From Bacteroidales bacterium (GTDB lineage: Bacteria > Bacteroidota > Bacteroidia > Bacteroidales > GWA2-32-17): a DNA stretch of 53,519 bases. Below the pieces are notes generated by a model that made no database searches, was not told where the DNA came from, and was given only the letters and a program-made list of their open reading frames with translations. Location of the stretch: the NCBI GenBank assembly GCA_013314715.1, contig JABUFC010000023.1, positions 1 through 53,519 on the forward strand, read 5' to 3'. Shown piece after piece: positions 34,239 to 42,559 of the stretch (its first letter is position 1; the number at the start of each line of letters is the position of its first letter). The position numbers and the translations under genes are program-made.

Positions 34239-35081
34239 TTGGTTAGAAAATTTTCTATATTGATTTTAATGCTGTTAGTATTTCATTTGTCGTTTTCTCA
34301 AACGGTAGATGAAATATTAGATAAAACATTTAAAAATATCGAATCTGCTAATACGCTGCGTTTGGTAATAATATCGCGCGAACGTTTTTTTAACAACTAT
34401 AAAACAGATAAAGGGATTTACAAAATTTCGAGAAACCCCATTTTATATTATTATAAACAACTAATACCTAACTCTGGTGCTGAAGTTTTAGTGAATTCTG
34501 AAATATATCCGATGGCTTGGGTTAATGCAAATGAATGGATGATTCCAACTTTAAAGTTAAGTCCCTTTGGTGCACAACTTAGAGATACACGTCACCATAA
34601 TCTTTATCATGCTGGTTTCGATTATTTTAAAAAAATATTATGTGTTTTAAAGGATAAATATTCTATAAATTGGGATAAGATAGTTTCGCTTGATATGAAT
34701 GCAAAATTACAGGAATATGATTGTTACAAGCTCGAAATAATCAATCCTTATTACAAAATAATTAATTTTAAAATTCAACAGCCAACAACACCACAAGAAT
34801 TAGCCCTTAAGTTAAATATTTGCGATTTTAGTATCTTAGAACTAAATCCGTCAATTGAAAACATTTTTAAAAAACTAACACCAGGGCAAGTGATTAAAAT
34901 ACCCAATGATTATGCTCAAAAAATTATAATTTATATTGACAAAAAATTAATGTTGCCACGTAAGATTCAGGTTTATGATACAAAAGGTCTTTGGGAAGAA
35001 TATTTTTTTGAGTCAATTGAGGTAAATTCAAAATTTTGTAAAGAAGAATTTTCTAAAAACTATAAAGAATATGGATTTTAA
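34239..35081 (+). CDS. Exported DUF1571-like protein with an embedded LysM-like segment
   Basis: A 280-aa exported protein. The start is a TTG at 34239, which gives a proper signal peptide (MVRKFSILILMLLVFHLSFS). The first in-frame ATG (34269) would remove the basic n-region. Residues 25-185 follow the DUF1571 pattern, a lipoprotein-carrier-like half-barrel (NTLRLVIISRERFFNNYKTD, then YKLEIINPYYKI). Residues about 190-228 look like a LysM motif inserted in it: ELALKLNICDFSILELNPSI, then KLTPGQVIKIPN. The domain then resumes (IIIYIDKKLMLPRKIQVYD). This suggests peptidoglycan contact for a periplasmic protein. The next gene, a DUF2147 protein, overlaps its end by 11 bp. Confidence 0.78.
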   Translation: MVRKFSILILMLLVFHLSFSQTVDEILDKTFKNIESANTLRLVIISRERFFNNYKTDKGIYKISRNPILYYYKQLIPNSGAEVLVNSEIYPMAWVNANEWMIPTLKLSPFGAQLRDTRHHNLYHAGFDYFKKILCVLKDKYSINWDKIVSLDMNAKLQEYDCYKLEIINPYYKIINFKIQQPTTPQELALKLNICDFSILELNPSIENIFKKLTPGQVIKIPNDYAQKIIIYIDKKLMLPRKIQVYDTKGLWEEYFFESIEVNSKFCKEEFSKNYKEYGF

Positions 35082-35523
35082 AAGTTTTTCATGGATAAGC
35101 AGTATGATGCTTTTATTTTTATTTAAGGTTAACTTTGCTCAAGTTAAATCCGATGATATTTTAGGAAAATGGATGACAGAAAAAAAAGAAGCCGTTGTAC
35201 AAATTTTTAAAACTAATGATAATAAATATGCTGGCAAAATAATATGGTTAGAAAAACCTTTAGAAAATGGTAAGCCCGTTGTTGATAAGAAAAATCCAAA
35301 ACCAGAACTCCGATCAAGACCCATTATGGGTTTAGTATTTGTTGCTGGCTTTGAATTTCAAGATGGAGAATGGGTAAATGGTATTGTTTATGACGCTCAA
35401 ACAGGTAATACTTACAAGGCTAAAATAATGTTAAAAGATAAGAATACGCTCGAATTAAGAGGTTATATTGGTTCGCCTATTTTTGGAAGATCGACCATAT
35501 GGACAAGACGTAATGATAAATAG
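35071..35523 (+). CDS. Exported DUF2147 protein
   Basis: A 150-aa protein with a signal peptide (ISSMMLLFLFKVNFAQ) and a single DUF2147 domain. The signatures are ILGKWMTEKKEAVVQIFKTN, YAGKIIWLEKPLENGKPVVD and the C-terminal LELRGYIGSPIFGRSTIWTR. The domain is a small beta-barrel of unknown biochemical role, found in many exported bacterial proteins. The start overlaps the preceding gene by 11 bp, so the pair is translationally coupled. The 191-bp stretch that follows shows no gene or clear terminator. Confidence 0.88.
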   Translation: MDFKSFSWISSMMLLFLFKVNFAQVKSDDILGKWMTEKKEAVVQIFKTNDNKYAGKIIWLEKPLENGKPVVDKKNPKPELRSRPIMGLVFVAGFEFQDGEWVNGIVYDAQTGNTYKAKIMLKDKNTLELRGYIGSPIFGRSTIWTRRNDK

Positions 35524-35714: not shown

Positions 35715-38177
35715 ATGGAATCAACTCATATTCACGATTGTAATACATTAGCTAAGCTTTTCGATATTCAAAATACGATAGCACAAGATTTATCTGTGGC
35801 AATGCCTTTAGAAACTGCCTTTGCTATTGTCATTAAACATTTTACATCGTTCGAAAACATATTAGGAGGGGCGTTTTATTCTATTCAAAACGATGGCTCG
35901 TTAATGCTCGAAAAATCAATTAATTTTAACGAAGAGCCTAAAAAACATAAACACTCATATGCATCGTTAAGTCCAGAAAATGCACTTGTTTATACGGGTG
36001 AAACCAAATTTATAAAATTACCTTCCGATTACGATTATTTTCATATTCAATCTTTTAATATTAATGCAACATGGTTCATTCTTTCACCTGTACGCCTCAA
36101 TGGCGATATTATTGGAGCCTTAATTCTTTTAGGTAAAGATGAAGCGAACCCTTTTTTATTAAAAGCAGTAGAAAATGCAAGTTATAAGATAGGAGGAGTT
36201 ATTGGTCGTATAGAATTCGAAAATGAGATTACTGAAAAGCAACAAAGTTTTGAGCGTATTTTTCAAAATATGCACGATATTTTAATTATTACCAATAAAG
36301 ATGGGAAAATTATATATTTTAATCAACTCCTTCCGAGTAAAACAGGATATTTAGACGAAGAGCTTTATACATTAGAAATTAGTCAGTTATTTCCAGACGA
36401 ATTAGCGTTCGATATAAAAAAACTTTTGAATGAAATAATTTCAAAAGAAAGTAAATTGATATTATATCCTTTACTTAATTCAAATCGTGAGATTATACCT
36501 GCCGAATCAATTGTGTCAAAAGTTGTTTGGAATGGAAGAAACATGTTTTTGTGGAATATCCGAGATTTAAAAGATAGAAAAGAGGCTCAAGAAGCGATTG
36601 CCATTGAAAAGAAAAAAGCCGAAATTGCCAATAATGCCAAAACCGCATTCTTAACAAATTTAAGTTATAGCTTACGCATTCCATTAAGTTCAGTTTTAGG
36701 AATGACCGAATTGTTGCTCAAAACCGATTTAAACAAAAATCAGTTTAATTATTTAAATATTATAACTCGATCGGCTGAACAACTTATGCTCATTGCTAAT
36801 CAATTGCTCGATATTTCAATAATTGAAAAAGGTGAAATGACACTTGAAACGAAAACATTTAGCCTTAAAGATACCATTATTCAAGTTATTAACCAACAGT
36901 ATTACAAAGCATATAATAAAGGTTTAGAAATCATATGCGATTATGTTTCTTACGGTCAGGACTTAGTTCTTAAAGGCGATTCGTTGCGATTATCACAGAT
37001 ACTTCAAAATTTGGTCGATAATGCAGTTAAATTTACTGATAATGGCAAAATTGAATTACACATTAACCCTACTCATTATTATGAAAATGGAGTAAGGATT
37101 CAATTTGTGGTTCGTGACACAGGACGTGGTATGACGACCGAAACTGTTAAAAGTATTTTAGAAGCTTGTAAACAAAAAAGTCCTGTTGCACGTCCCAATA
37201 ATGGCGATTTCGGGTTAGGTCTTATTATTGCTTACAATTTGATAGCTTTAATGGGAGGAGAACTTAACATTTCAAGCGAATTACACCGAGGCACAACCAT
37301 GTCATTCGAATTGCTATTAAATATTGGTCAAATACACGAATTACAGATTGGACAATCAGAAGATGCATTTAGTTCTAATACTTCTGTGCGTGAGCAAGTT
37401 AGGGTTATTGTTGCAGAAGATCAGCCTTTTAACCAGATGGTTGTAAAAAACATGCTCGAAGATTTTGGTTTTAAAGTTGACTGCGTTGATAATGGTCAAC
37501 AACTAATTGATAAAATAATTAACCAACAATATGATGTTATTTTAATGGATATATATATGCCCATTATGGATGGCATTGCGGCTACAAAATATATACGAAC
37601 TAAGCTTAATAAGCCTGTATGCGACACCCCTATTATTGCTATAACGGCTAATGCATATATAAACGAACATCAAAAATATCTCGAAGCAGGTGTAAACGAT
37701 ACCATTTCTAAGCCCTTTAAATCGCAATTGCTATACAGCAAAATAATGCATCATATTGGTTTAGCCAAAGCTCAAGCTATTAAAGACAACAGAATTTTAG
37801 AATTTGATATTTCAAAGTCGAATGTCGATAAATTTTATAATCTTGATTTATTATATAACATTACAAAAAATCAAAAAAACGCTATTATTAAAATGTTACA
37901 AGTCTTTATTGAAAAAACCCATATAGAATTAACTCAACTCGAAGAATATGTTCTTAATAAAGATTGGCAAAACGTTGCTGGCATTGCTCATAAAATGAAG
38001 CCATCGTTAGCATATCTTTCTATGAAGCAAGTAGAAGAATTAATACAACAAATTTATTATTTATCCAAAAATAATGAACAAACCGATCGTATTCCTAAAC
38101 TTTTAGCTAATGCTAAAGCTATTTTAGATTTTGTAATTCATCAGTTGCAAGAAGAAATTAAACGGTTAAGTGAATAA
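35715..38177 (+). CDS. Hybrid sensor kinase-like protein (GAF-PAS-HisKA-HATPase-REC-Hpt), phospho-His replaced by Tyr
   Basis: An 820-aa soluble signalling protein without membrane helices. Domains in order: GAF-like (about 15-165); PAS (about 180-290, FQNMHDILIITNKDGKIIYF); HisKA helix (305-370); HATPase_c (about 425-530) with LQNLVDNAVKFTDNGK, VVRDTGRGM and GDFGLGLIIAYNLIALMGG; receiver (about 555-680) with acceptor Asp612 in VILMDIYMPIMDG; and Hpt (about 710-810) with His759 in IAHKMKPSLAYL. The H box reads FLTNLSYSLRIPLSSVLG, so the expected His is Tyr318 (TAT). It probably cannot autophosphorylate in the usual way. The next gene starts 2 nt after its stop. Confidence 0.9.
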   Translation: MESTHIHDCNTLAKLFDIQNTIAQDLSVAMPLETAFAIVIKHFTSFENILGGAFYSIQNDGSLMLEKSINFNEEPKKHKHSYASLSPENALVYTGETKFIKLPSDYDYFHIQSFNINATWFILSPVRLNGDIIGALILLGKDEANPFLLKAVENASYKIGGVIGRIEFENEITEKQQSFERIFQNMHDILIITNKDGKIIYFNQLLPSKTGYLDEELYTLEISQLFPDELAFDIKKLLNEIISKESKLILYPLLNSNREIIPAESIVSKVVWNGRNMFLWNIRDLKDRKEAQEAIAIEKKKAEIANNAKTAFLTNLSYSLRIPLSSVLGMTELLLKTDLNKNQFNYLNIITRSAEQLMLIANQLLDISIIEKGEMTLETKTFSLKDTIIQVINQQYYKAYNKGLEIICDYVSYGQDLVLKGDSLRLSQILQNLVDNAVKFTDNGKIELHINPTHYYENGVRIQFVVRDTGRGMTTETVKSILEACKQKSPVARPNNGDFGLGLIIAYNLIALMGGELNISSELHRGTTMSFELLLNIGQIHELQIGQSEDAFSSNTSVREQVRVIVAEDQPFNQMVVKNMLEDFGFKVDCVDNGQQLIDKIINQQYDVILMDIYMPIMDGIAATKYIRTKLNKPVCDTPIIAITANAYINEHQKYLEAGVNDTISKPFKSQLLYSKIMHHIGLAKAQAIKDNRILEFDISKSNVDKFYNLDLLYNITKNQKNAIIKMLQVFIEKTHIELTQLEEYVLNKDWQNVAGIAHKMKPSLAYLSMKQVEELIQQIYYLSKNNEQTDRIPKLLANAKAILDFVIHQLQEEIKRLSE

Positions 38178-38179
38178 TT

Positions 38180-38695
38180 ATGGCAATTATTGTATCGGTT
38201 AGAGATAAAACTCCTATTATAGGTGAAAATTGTTTTTTAGCTCCCAATGCTTCTATAATAGGTGACGTTGTTTTAGGCAATAATTGTAGTATTTGGTTTA
38301 ATGCTGTTATTCGTGGCGATGTGCATTATATTCGAATAGGCAATAATTGTAACATTCAAGATGGAGCCATTATTCATTGTACCTATCAAAAATCGCCAAC
38401 CAATATAGGCAACAATGTTTCTATAGCACATGCAGCAGTGGTCCATGGTTGTACTATTCACGATAATGTGCTTATTGGCATTGGAGCTATTATTCTCGAC
38501 AATTGTGTGATTCATCGTAATAGCCTTATAGCTGCCGGTTCGCTTTTACTCGAAGGTACCGTAGTCGAAGAAGGAAGTGTTTATGCCGGTTCACCAGCAA
38601 AAAAAATTAAGGAAATTAGCCCCGAGTTGCTTAAGGGACAGGTAGAACGAATTGCACAAAGCTACTCTATGTATGCAAGTTGGTATTCGAAATAA
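38180..38695 (+). CDS. Gamma-carbonic-anhydrase-like hexapeptide-repeat protein
   Basis: A 171-aa left-handed beta-helix protein built of hexapeptide repeats (CFLAPNASIIGDVVLGNNCS, SIWFNAVIRGDVHYIRIG). The zinc His triad of gamma-class carbonic anhydrases is present: one His in GAIIHCTYQ, two in SIAHAAVVHGCTI. The C-terminus has the family block YAGSPAKKIKEISPELLKGQ. Related YrdA/PaaY/CaiE-type proteins are trimeric; many have weak or no carbonic anhydrase activity, so the enzyme role is open. It is 2 nt after the kinase-like gene and probably shares its transcript. A hairpin starts at its stop codon. Confidence 0.9.
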   Translation: MAIIVSVRDKTPIIGENCFLAPNASIIGDVVLGNNCSIWFNAVIRGDVHYIRIGNNCNIQDGAIIHCTYQKSPTNIGNNVSIAHAAVVHGCTIHDNVLIGIGAIILDNCVIHRNSLIAAGSLLLEGTVVEEGSVYAGSPAKKIKEISPELLKGQVERIAQSYSMYASWYSK

Positions 38696-38884: not shown

Positions 38885-41800
38885 ATGCTTAAAATTATTA
38901 TATTAGGACTTTTTATATTTGTGTTTTACATTTCTAAAAGTCAAACAAACACAACGGATAGCGTTGTTAAATCAGTTTTAACCACTCCTTCACATATAGA
39001 TAATTCCAAAAGACCTTCTATGCAACCAAACGATAAAATTGAACAAATCCATCGTATTGACAAAGTTTATAGACCAGAAACCAATGTTGAAAATAAAAAA
39101 AATGAAAATCAGGATTGTGAGGAACCTGTATCAACTGAGACTTCGGTTGCTTTAAATCATGAGAAAACTTCACAGGAACGCATCGCTCAGTATAAAAAAA
39201 TGATAATCGAATTAAAAGACGAAAAAAATAAATTGGAATTAAAGGGTGAAAATACAAGCGAAATAGATAGAAAGATTGAAAAATTACAAACTTTAATTTT
39301 ACGTTTATCAAGTGATAATAAAAATATTTCAGATAAAAATAGCTCATTTGCTTTGAATGAGCATTTAGCAAATGATAAAAATGATTTTAATATTACAATA
39401 GAAAAAAGCACTAAAGCTGATCCTTGTGCGAGTATAACTGCTATGACTTTAGGGGTAACATATACAGGTACTCTAGCTGCTTCAGGTAGTGATTGGTCAA
39501 CATATACCGATTGCTCTTATACTGAATCTGGCGATGAAGGGGTGTATTCATTTACCCCTTCTTCTACTGGAAATTATACCTTTTCGGGGACTGCAACATC
39601 AGGTGATCCTGATTTCTTTTTAATGAGTTCTTGTGGAAATACTGGAACCAACATTACAGGCTCTTGTTGGGATTATGGCGATAGAACAGTTTCGTTAGTA
39701 GCTGGAACCACTTATTATCTTGTAGTAGATAATTATTCTAGTTCGAGTAGTGCAGAATATTCTATCATTGTAAATAGTGCTGCTGCAGGACCTTCAAATG
39801 ATGATTGCACAGGAGCTATAACTCTAACAGTTGGAGCCAGTTGTTCGTTTAGTTCATATACCAATGCTAATGCAACTGCAACTTCGGGTGTTCCAGCACC
39901 AGGGTGCGCAAATTATTTAGGAGGAGATGTTTGGTTTAAAGCGACAGTGCCTGCTTCGGGACATATAATTTTAGATATGGATGATAATGTTGTAACCGAT
40001 GCTGGAATGGCAATTTATACCGGTACCTGTGGTTCATTATCGTTAGTTGAATGTGACGATGATGATAGTAATAATGGTTTAATGGCAATGATAGACAAAA
40101 GTGGCTTATCTTCTGGAACAACCATTTATATTCGTGTTTGGGAATATGGAAATGATAATAACGGTTCTTTTTATATCTGTGCTTATGATCCGGGAATAGG
40201 TGCATGTGGTAGTGTTACAAATATTGCATCATGTGGTACATCTACAACGGTTACTTCTGGTGGCGGTTCTGGGAATTGGAATAATCAGGAATGTGGTTCG
40301 GGAACTCCGGGCGCTGAAAAAATATTTTCATTTACACCAACAACTACTGCTGCGTATTATATTGTAGTTACTTCCGCTTCATCCTATATGACATATGCAT
40401 ATCAGACCGGAACATGTCAGTCTACAGGTTGGACTTGTATGGCAAGACCAAATGCACCAGGTACTTTTGGTCCTTTTAATTGGACAGCTGGAGTTACTTA
40501 TTATATTTTAGTTGACGATGAAGATGCTTCTTCTTCTACCCATACTTTTTATATAAAATGTCCGGAAACACCTGGGACTTATTATCATCCTACTGAAGGT
40601 TTGCAGGGAACTTATTTAGGTTCATGTATGGTTAATACTTGTACAGGTACATATACAGATGATGGAGGGGCTGCTAATTATTCTCTAAATATAAACTCAA
40701 TATATAGAACGTTTTGCCCTGATGCTACAGGAAAATGCATTAGAGCAACCTTTAACAGTATGGATATTGAAGAAAATGGAACAAGTTGCTATGATTATTT
40801 AATTGTAAGAAATGGTCCCACTCAGGGAAGCCCCATTCTATGGGCAGGCTGTAAAACATTAGCATCTACAAATAGTTTATTAGGAACATTCTCAAATCCT
40901 TTCACAGCATCAAACACAAGCGGTTGTTTAACATTTCAATTTTATAGCGATAATACTATTACTCGTCCTGGCTGGAATATTTCATTATCATGTGTGGATT
41001 GTGCAGCTTCACCAACAAATAATGATTGTATTTCAGCAACTTCTATTTGTGGAGCAACGAACGTAAATTCAGCAAGTCCAGGACCAGGTATTACTTCTAC
41101 TTGCGGAGGTTGTAATTTAAGTGAAAATTATTCTAACTGGTATTATTTTGAAATTACTAACAGCGGACGATTGTACCTTGATATTAAACCTGAAGATTTT
41201 TTTGAAGATTATGATATGGCATTATATCAGGCAAGCAGCTGTGCAAATCTTGGAAATCCTGTTCGTTGTACTTATGCTATGACACCTCAATATTGTCAGC
41301 CAGTTTCTTCAGGAGCTTCATATTATATTTCAAGAGTAAGGTTTAATACTATTGACAATACTTCAACTTACTACAATGATTTTTATGCAAATTACACAAC
41401 TTCGATTAGTTCTACTGTAACAGCCGGAAGTGCCTATAATCTTCAAGTTACTGTTGCCGGAACATCAATGTATGTTGTTGCTTGGTTTGATTGGAATAAA
41501 AATTTACAATTTGACTCAGGTGAGTATTACTCTCTTGGAAGTGGGAATAATACTACTTTATCAACATCAATAACAGTCCCAGTAACTGCAAGACCTGGAA
41601 AAACTGCATTCAGAGTTTATACAACTAGAAGTGGTGCTGTTCCAAACACAGATGCTTGTATTAGCTATGCTAATGGTGAGATTGAAGATTATGCAATTTT
41701 TATTTCTGATGGAACACATTGTTCAAATGGAGTTAAAGATGCAGATGAAATCGGAGTAGATTGTGGAGGTGCAGGATGTGTTCCATGTGATGCCTCATAT

Positions 41801-42559
41801 TGGCCTACAAATACAGGAATGAATAGTACTTCAACTGATTATTCTGAAGATGTAACAGGCGATAGTTGGGTGCAAGGGATACCTGTAAATGCTGGTGAAT
41901 CTTATTACTTAATGGTAAATAACTGGTCGCCCGGCGCTAATGGTTTTGACTTGATATGGAACTTTACTGAAGGTGGTGCCATGGATTGCTCTATTGTATT
42001 GCCGATTGAATTGCTTGATTTTAATGTGAAACTCATAGGACAATTTACAACATTGTATTGGGAAACAGCATCAGAAATTAATAATGATTATTTTACAATT
42101 ATGAAATCAACTGATGCAATAATATACAAGCCCATTGGAACTATTAAAGGAGCAGGAAATTCTAATACAATTCAACGGTATACGTTTAACGATAATGAAC
42201 CAATTACACAAACTACATATTACAGATTAAAACAAATCGATTTTGATGGAAAAGTAACTTATTCTGAAGTTAGAGTTGTGTTACCTGATTTGCAATCTTC
42301 TGTACAGCAGTTTAATGTATTTAACGATATAAATAACGAAAATCTAAACATTACACTTATTGGCTATCCCAATACAAAGTTAGACTATGCCATAGTTGAT
42401 GTTATGGGGAGGATAATTAAGCAAGGTAAGATAAATATTGATGAGAATGCTTTAGGTGGATTGAAATTATCTACAAATGATATTGCTGCCGGTATATACA
42501 ATATTGTAATTAGTGATGGAAGATATACAGTAAAGAAAAAATTTGTTATTGTAAAATAA
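38885..42559 (+). CDS. Large multidomain T9SS-secreted protein (PPC-like, CUB-like, GEVED, sorting domain)
   Basis: A 1224-aa secreted protein. The signal peptide is MLKIIILGLFIFVFYISKSQ. A charged coiled-coil-like region (about 95-155, KKMIIELKDEKNKLELKGEN) follows. Then come three PPC-like beta modules (about 178-300, 305-435, 437-558; for example GTTYYLVVDNYSSSSSAEYS), a CUB-like domain (about 570-702, DYLIVRNGPTQGSPILWAGC), and another partial PPC-like module. A GEVED domain (about 802-941, WFDWNKNLQFDSGEYYSLGS and GEIEDYAIFI) and a T9SS type A domain (from about 1143, ending YTVKKKFVIVK) complete it. These are adhesion or matrix modules without a recognisable enzyme domain. It has no operon partner and a 189-bp upstream gap. 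Confidence 0.88.
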   Translation: MLKIIILGLFIFVFYISKSQTNTTDSVVKSVLTTPSHIDNSKRPSMQPNDKIEQIHRIDKVYRPETNVENKKNENQDCEEPVSTETSVALNHEKTSQERIAQYKKMIIELKDEKNKLELKGENTSEIDRKIEKLQTLILRLSSDNKNISDKNSSFALNEHLANDKNDFNITIEKSTKADPCASITAMTLGVTYTGTLAASGSDWSTYTDCSYTESGDEGVYSFTPSSTGNYTFSGTATSGDPDFFLMSSCGNTGTNITGSCWDYGDRTVSLVAGTTYYLVVDNYSSSSSAEYSIIVNSAAAGPSNDDCTGAITLTVGASCSFSSYTNANATATSGVPAPGCANYLGGDVWFKATVPASGHIILDMDDNVVTDAGMAIYTGTCGSLSLVECDDDDSNNGLMAMIDKSGLSSGTTIYIRVWEYGNDNNGSFYICAYDPGIGACGSVTNIASCGTSTTVTSGGGSGNWNNQECGSGTPGAEKIFSFTPTTTAAYYIVVTSASSYMTYAYQTGTCQSTGWTCMARPNAPGTFGPFNWTAGVTYYILVDDEDASSSTHTFYIKCPETPGTYYHPTEGLQGTYLGSCMVNTCTGTYTDDGGAANYSLNINSIYRTFCPDATGKCIRATFNSMDIEENGTSCYDYLIVRNGPTQGSPILWAGCKTLASTNSLLGTFSNPFTASNTSGCLTFQFYSDNTITRPGWNISLSCVDCAASPTNNDCISATSICGATNVNSASPGPGITSTCGGCNLSENYSNWYYFEITNSGRLYLDIKPEDFFEDYDMALYQASSCANLGNPVRCTYAMTPQYCQPVSSGASYYISRVRFNTIDNTSTYYNDFYANYTTSISSTVTAGSAYNLQVTVAGTSMYVVAWFDWNKNLQFDSGEYYSLGSGNNTTLSTSITVPVTARPGKTAFRVYTTRSGAVPNTDACISYANGEIEDYAIFISDGTHCSNGVKDADEIGVDCGGAGCVPCDASYWPTNTGMNSTSTDYSEDVTGDSWVQGIPVNAGESYYLMVNNWSPGANGFDLIWNFTEGGAMDCSIVLPIELLDFNVKLIGQFTTLYWETASEINNDYFTIMKSTDAIIYKPIGTIKGAGNSNTIQRYTFNDNEPITQTTYYRLKQIDFDGKVTYSEVRVVLPDLQSSVQQFNVFNDINNENLNITLIGYPNTKLDYAIVDVMGRIIKQGKINIDENALGGLKLSTNDIAAGIYNIVISDGRYTVKKKFVIVK

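Follow-up and report, generated by a model that had tools for sequence, protein, structure and literature searches.

A hybrid histidine kinase homolog encoded in the window, i.e., the whole 53,519-nucleotide stretch of DNA analyzed here, carries Tyr318 at the position of the phospho-accepting His and retains the phosphotransfer residues of its receiver (REC) and Hpt domains. The loss of the His is shared by all four genomes of the window's genus, and the kinase activity of the orthologs in the whole family is predicted to be lost through different combinations of substitutions. With moderate confidence, we consider that the protein is a pseudokinase having a live REC-Hpt station that would be fed in trans.

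Domain composition and acceptor site

The gene is located at positions 35715..38177 (+ strand) and was assigned to an 820-aa hybrid histidine pseudokinase, designated q, on the basis of its ORF, Pfam matches, hydropathy, and an AlphaFold2 model. The domains of q are arranged in the order N-terminal alpha/beta, PAS, DHp, CA, REC, and Hpt, and the PAS, HisKA, HATPase_c, Response_reg, and Hpt matches were each above the Pfam cut-off. The PAS domain (36249..36566, +; residues 179-284) matched PF00989 with 37.6 bits, and the DHp/HisKA domain (36636..36833, +; residues 308-373) scored 47.4 bits against a cut-off of 26.9. These are followed on the + strand by the Pfam-defined CA domain (HATPase_c; 36975..37319; residues 421-535), receiver domain (Response_reg; 37404..37745; residues 564-677), and Hpt domain (37893..38168; residues 727-818). 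No Pfam match was obtained for residues 1-165 at 0.001; the predicted alpha/beta make-up and the position of this N-terminal domain suggest that it is GAF-like. No transmembrane segment was predicted by hydropathy.

A sequence-only reading of this DNA had drawn attention to the H-box, NLSYSLRIPL, in which the codon TAT (36666..36668, +) places Tyr318 at the phospho-acceptor position, and this was confirmed in an intact ORF. In the alignment to PDB 7z8n, Tyr318 stands opposite the H-box His of GacS. In addition, q has Ser319 at +1, where Glu or Asp is usual, and Ile at +4, where Thr or Asn is usual. Work on CrdS, HK853, and two other HisKA kinases showed that kinase activity depends on the acidic residue at +1, and phosphatase activity on the Thr or Asn at +4 (PMC3510030). 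A displaced His of the DHp region was considered as a substitute acceptor and rejected: a count over residues 295-375 found no His in q or in its ortholog from G001, and the one His of the G003 ortholog and the two of the G002 ortholog are not at the acceptor column. Because the acceptor His, an acidic +1 residue, and any other DHp His are absent, the transmitter of q is predicted to be unable to phosphorylate itself.

The same reading had described the ATP-binding boxes as intact. This holds for those residues of the N, G1, and G2 boxes that were examined in the CA domain, but not for the F-box, which has lost its phenylalanines (ILEAC, compared with an IFExF-like sequence in most of the 30 aligned proteins), and the G2 box reads GDFGLGL. 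The codons of the phospho-accepting Asp612 of the receiver (GAT; 37548..37550, +) and of the phospho-accepting His759 of the Hpt domain (CAT; 37989..37991, +) are both present, and the acidic pocket, Thr644, and Lys666 of the receiver are also found. The sequence thus agrees with the earlier proposal that q lost its autophosphorylation site and retained the residues for phosphotransfer through REC and Hpt.

The AlphaFold2 model of q, built from a 20-sequence alignment, had a mean pLDDT of 79.8 and a pTM of 0.40, a value which supports the domain folds and not their arrangement. Foldseek related the transmitter to the complex of RetS with the GacS DHp (7n0e; TM-score by target, 0.71), DivL (4q20; TM-score by target length, 0.68; 27% identity), and GacS (7z8n; TM-score by target, 0.67; 32% identity); larger multi-domain entries with low TM-scores outranked these by E-value. 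By sequence, the best matches of the transmitter among solved structures were GacS and RetS.

Loss of the acceptor His in the window's genus

Ten genomes of family f1 were compared, consisting of four from the window's genus (G000, which contains the window, G001, G002, and G003), five from the sister genus g2 (G004, G006, G007, G008, and G009), and one from the third genus g3 (G005). The sister family f54 was represented by G062 and G261. An ortholog of q was present in all ten f1 genomes, and the acceptor His was kept in six of them. The acceptor residues in the window's genus are Tyr, Phe, Phe, and Phe, encoded by TAT, TTT, TTT, and TTT. As regards the conservation of Tyr among close homologs, which the earlier reading had raised, the absence of His is conserved in the genus (4/4), but Tyr itself is not (1/4, with Phe in 3/4). 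The presence of Phe in three congeners indicates that the hydroxyl group is not the point of the substitution. The case in which homologs have His and this strain alone differs fails at the genus level, since Tyr or Phe was found in 4/4 genomes. A sequencing error or a strain-private change was likewise rejected, because four separate genomes lack the His and their codons differ.

When q and 29 homologs, other f1 genera included, were aligned, His was found in 26 of the 30 proteins, which are the homologs from outside the window's genus. Furthermore, the four congeneric genomes contain 54 HisKA matches, of which 50 have His and the other four are the orthologs of q; the loss of the His is therefore not a matter of chance. 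An IQ-TREE tree of 21 of the 30 aligned proteins, calculated with the H-box columns removed, placed the four proteins without the His together as a clade (support, 100/99) with a single state change, a clade to be taken with caution given the long terminal branch of G002 (2.47). The G002 protein is divergent (31-34% identity depending on the alignment), and its orthology is backed by its shared neighbors, the same DUF1571 gene upstream and gamma-carbonic-anhydrase (gamma-CA) gene directly downstream. As far as these four genomes represent it, the loss of the His is fixed in the window's genus. Among five distant loci obtained from a genome-contig scan, three gave an ORF match; the H-box was aligned in two of these, both with His, and the third did not have that stretch. 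No ORF match was found for the distant loci L002 and L005.

Predicted loss of kinase activity in family f1

The acidic +1 residue was missing in nine of the ten f1 orthologs, being replaced with Ala or Ser, and +4 was Ile in nine, with Thr in G002. All five g2 orthologs read SHAFRIP, in which the His is kept and the +1 acid is missing, and both their kinase and phosphatase activities are predicted to be dead. These five proteins retain the N, G1, and G2 residues, as do q, G001, and G003. The G005 ortholog (L015, contig C161) reads SHEFRIP, but has lost N436, K439, G470, and G502. The G002 ortholog (L014, contig C45) has lost N436, G472, G500, and G502, and has Arg in place of K439. Both f54 homologs have an intact SHEFRTP. 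The kinase loss is thus broader than Tyr318, since the orthologs with the His miss other essential residues, and all ten f1 orthologs are predicted to be kinase-dead. The routes seen in the alignment are the change of the acceptor His to Tyr or Phe, the loss of the +1 acid, and the loss of the nucleotide pocket. On the IQ-TREE tree, two changes are required for +1 and two for +4; the placement of G005 relative to the window's genus and g2 differs between FastTree and IQ-TREE.

On the other hand, the receiver residues E568, D569, D612, and T644 are kept in 10/10 f1 orthologs. K666, the Hpt His759, and the Lys that follows it are kept in 9/9, the contig of G005 ending before these residues.

Selective constraint on the gene

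The DHp domain is the most conserved domain among q, G001, and G003 despite the lost His, with 84% identity between q and G001 compared with 62% for CA, 63% for REC, and 60% for Hpt. Between G004 and G007 of g2, the corresponding values are 96% for DHp, 74% for CA, 80% for REC, and 65% for Hpt. The DHp domain of G002 is only 36% identical to that of q. DHp conservation was rejected as a hallmark of dead proteins, because it is equally high in pairs with an intact H-box (87% in G062-G261, 82% in G155-G042, and 96% in G071-G205); in another such pair, G007b-G008b, the REC and Hpt identities are above that of DHp. The identities thus indicate that the constraint on the DHp domain persists after the loss of the His, with no claim of an increase.

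Since dS is saturated in the window's genus (2.73 for G001-G003 and infinite for most domains), dN/dS values were taken from the sister genus. The whole-gene values of G004-G006, G004-G008, and G007-G009 were 0.052, 0.064, and 0.075, and those of the DHp domain were 0, 0.006, and 0, respectively. These ratios indicate that the kinase gene is under purifying selection in g2. A long open frame was found in all ten f1 genomes, that of G005 being cut by the contig end; the single TAA reported for G002 is at the upstream end of the matched region, ahead of its 806-aa ORF.

The kinase gene of G007 and that on contig C50 (L060) of G009 are nearly identical, and G009 contains the PAS gene described below in two differing copies, on C50 (L060) and on C102 (L156). 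C50 may therefore be a stray contig, possibly from assembly contamination, in which case g2 may count as four genomes and not five.

Neighboring genes

The gene downstream of the kinase encodes a gamma-CA-like hexapeptide protein of 171 aa (38180..38695, +). It starts 2 nt past the kinase stop codon, the distance given by the sequence-only reading, and is probably co-transcribed with the kinase gene. The gamma-CA gene directly follows the kinase gene in nine of the ten f1 genomes; in G005, it is on another contig with no kinase gene within 1.5 kb upstream. Among 60 related genomes, 47 had a relative of the gamma-CA gene (E 1e-30; 48 matches). When 30 of the 48 matches were examined, each for up to 1.5 kb upstream, this kinase gene was present at nine f1 loci; the other 21, 20 of them from other families, did not have it. 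Within these loci, the kinase and gamma-CA genes form an operon that is conserved in two genera and is not of general occurrence. The earlier suggestion that the gamma-CA protein may be part of the kinase output is weakened by the absence of the pair in G005 and at the 20 loci of other families and by the wide distribution of the gamma-CA gene. As a dedicated output it was not supported outside f1 at the loci examined.

DUF1571 and DUF2147 genes are located upstream of the kinase gene (34239-35523); G001 and G003 have retained both, and G002 the DUF1571 gene. The gamma-CA gene is followed by a gene for a 1224-aa protein (38885-42559), perhaps a secreted surface protein, which had a weak match to a T9SS type A sorting domain (19.6 bits; cut-off, 23). 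Taken with general features, this sub-threshold match suggests that the lineage is probably Bacteroidota.

In 5/5 g2 genomes, the kinase gene is directly preceded by a gene for a multi-PAS protein of 605-611 aa. A scan of two copies, from G004 and G000, with Pfam detected PAS domains and no kinase domain. A relative of this protein is present in all ten f1 genomes, and its gene does not adjoin the kinase gene in the window's genus and G005. The multi-PAS gene of G000 (L150:8601-10397; contig C14, 37624-39345) is located beside DUF4293 and chloride-channel genes, and its product has a strongly hydrophobic N-terminal segment. The same two neighbors were found at four g2 loci; contig C50 of G009 ends before them.

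Fusions of a PAS protein and a pseudokinase were found in f54 (L166:3656-7624 in G062 and L167:4729-8718 in G261; 1323 and 1330 aa, respectively). Their N-terminal half is a relative of the multi-PAS protein, with 30-31% identity over about 587 residues. The C-terminal half corresponds to a hybrid kinase that has degenerated, with Lys in place of the H-box His and no GLGL; its receiver Asp and Hpt His are retained. Both fusion genes end 10-11 nt before an intact homolog of q. When this upstream pseudokinase of f54 was sought in f1 (E to 1e-45), its kinase half matched q and two other hybrids with 26-32% identity, and its N-terminal half matched the f1 PAS protein with 35-39% identity. The fusion, adjacency, and co-occurrence together point to one functional module for the PAS protein and the kinase. 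If this is so, the f1 module has lost its intact kinase, and phosphate, if used, would have to come from another kinase. The separate location of the two genes in the window's genus and G005 speaks against such a module. The membrane multi-PAS protein is a better candidate partner than the gamma-CA protein.

Comparison with known systems

Pseudo-histidine kinases as such are already known; about 1% of histidine kinases are reported to be without the acceptor His, and studies have dealt with few of the bacterial examples (PMC5361649). DivL of Caulobacter resembles q in having Tyr at the HisKA acceptor position, a retained DHp fold, and a loss that is conserved across orthologs (PMC4211667, PMC5361649). 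Its Tyr-bearing transmitter is described as able to sense a receiver while having no activity as a kinase (PMC4211667, PMC5361649). A fixed non-His acceptor, as in DivL, is found in 4/4 genomes of the window's genus, and His is found in 6/10 of the family. However, DivL is described as a PAS plus DHp/CA protein, whereas q adds REC and Hpt domains with their residues kept; moreover, three of the four congeners have Phe, and the phosphotransfer output of q is probably kept.

In enterobacterial RcsD, an inactive kinase domain is followed by an Hpt domain that is fed by another hybrid kinase (PMC7418988, PMC13317618), and this Hpt donor is described as being loaded from RcsC (PMC13317618, PMC7418988). 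The combination of an inactive kinase domain (as predicted) and an Hpt His is also found in q. Unlike q, which has no predicted transmembrane segment, RcsD is described as membrane-spanning, with an ABL domain before the Hpt domain, whereas q has a full receiver before it. The score of q against the RcsD model NF007907 was 82.3 bits, far under the cut-off of 634.

The GacS/RetS/LadS system of Pseudomonas offers a further parallel, in that a kinase makes use in trans of the Hpt domain of a different kinase (PMC4866733, PMC12189002); LadS is reported to use that of GacS (PMC4866733). The H-box of GacS has His, however, and no orthology to q is claimed. ChrS of C. glutamicum is a kinase-dead histidine kinase with a positive signaling role through another kinase, but arose by a laboratory-evolved frameshift in the CA domain and not by loss of the acceptor His (PMC9491836); the available description mentions no receiver or Hpt domain (PMC9491836). 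In the accessible portion of the open-licence literature, no described hybrid with a lost His and a live REC-Hpt part was found.

Proposed role of the pseudokinase

By analogy, an RcsD-like working combined with a DivL-like residue change would be the best reading for q. We infer from the above the following lack of activity, loading in trans, partner, and direction of flow. The DHp helices would be retained, probably as a platform for dimerization and receiver docking, and the REC-Hpt half would stay a working phosphotransfer station. Another hybrid kinase would most likely load the Hpt His759 or the REC Asp612 in trans, and q would deliver the phosphoryl group to a response regulator encoded at another locus or withdraw it from one. 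The N-terminal and PAS domains of q would control its state, perhaps together with the membrane multi-PAS partner that has no kinase domain. There are 26 receiver matches and 2 Hpt matches in the G000 genome, q being counted in both. The Thr at +4 and the branch length of 2.47 of G002 stand against the trans-fed reading, as do the separation of the PAS and kinase genes in the window's genus and G005 and the occurrence of high DHp conservation in pairs with an intact H-box.

Among the alternatives, q might be a DivL-like allosteric sensor, whose dead transmitter binds a phosphorylated receiver, either its own or that of another protein, and alters a separate kinase without moving phosphate, the REC-Hpt part serving as a reader of the phosphate state. 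The Tyr-for-His change is shared with DivL, in which the Y550F variant is reported to still bind DivK~P (PMC4211667), and the structural match to 4q20 and the well-conserved DHp domain of q, G001, and G003 fit this idea. We nevertheless regard it as unlikely, because the phosphotransfer residues of REC and Hpt are kept even in G002, which has no CA pocket, and the conservation of the Hpt chemistry would be difficult to account for if no phosphoryl group were transferred.

Since the N, G1, and G2 residues of q, G001, and G003 would be needless for a pure relay, the CA domain may function as part of a heterodimer and phosphorylate the DHp His of an active partner kinase; alternatively, the DHp domain of q would block a partner, as RetS does with GacS. 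The same residues in the five g2 proteins, perhaps still allowing ATP binding, the sequence matches to GacS and RetS, and the f54 loci encoding a pseudokinase hybrid and an intact hybrid side by side are in line with a heterodimer subunit. The ATP-pocket residues are lost in G002 and G005, however, so such a role of the CA domain is not general, and a preprint considers RcsC-RcsD heterodimers unlikely (PMC13317618); we therefore judge this rather unlikely.

It is extremely unlikely that the kinase is being lost and its substitutions are neutral: the divergence of G002 (31-34% identity on a long terminal branch) would fit a decaying gene, but the frames are open in 10/10 genomes, the sole TAA of G002 precedes its ORF, the three g2 pairs have low whole-gene dN/dS values, and the REC and Hpt residues are kept. 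That Tyr318 is itself phosphorylated by a tyrosine kinase reaction in cis is scarcely credible and was rejected, as Tyr is chemically phosphorylatable but 3/4 congeners carry Phe, and the Tyr-bearing DivL is reported to show no autophosphorylation on addition of DivK or DivK~P (PMC4211667).

Returning to the trans-fed pseudokinase, we tentatively propose, at the level of the family, that f1 dismantled the kinase of one sensory module in various ways and that this module, as a sensor and phosphotransfer station lacking its own kinase, gates the phosphate of other kinases. The receiver, the Hpt domain, and the multi-PAS sensor would have been preserved, with the PAS gene unlinked in some genera, and f54 would represent the other split form, in which the PAS sensor is fused to a dead hybrid beside a live one. 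These observations caution against annotating q and its relatives as active kinases. With a genus-fixed loss of the His, graded kinase loss in its relatives, and an intact receiver and Hpt domain, q provides a testable case of pseudokinases as trans-fed phosphorelay nodes.
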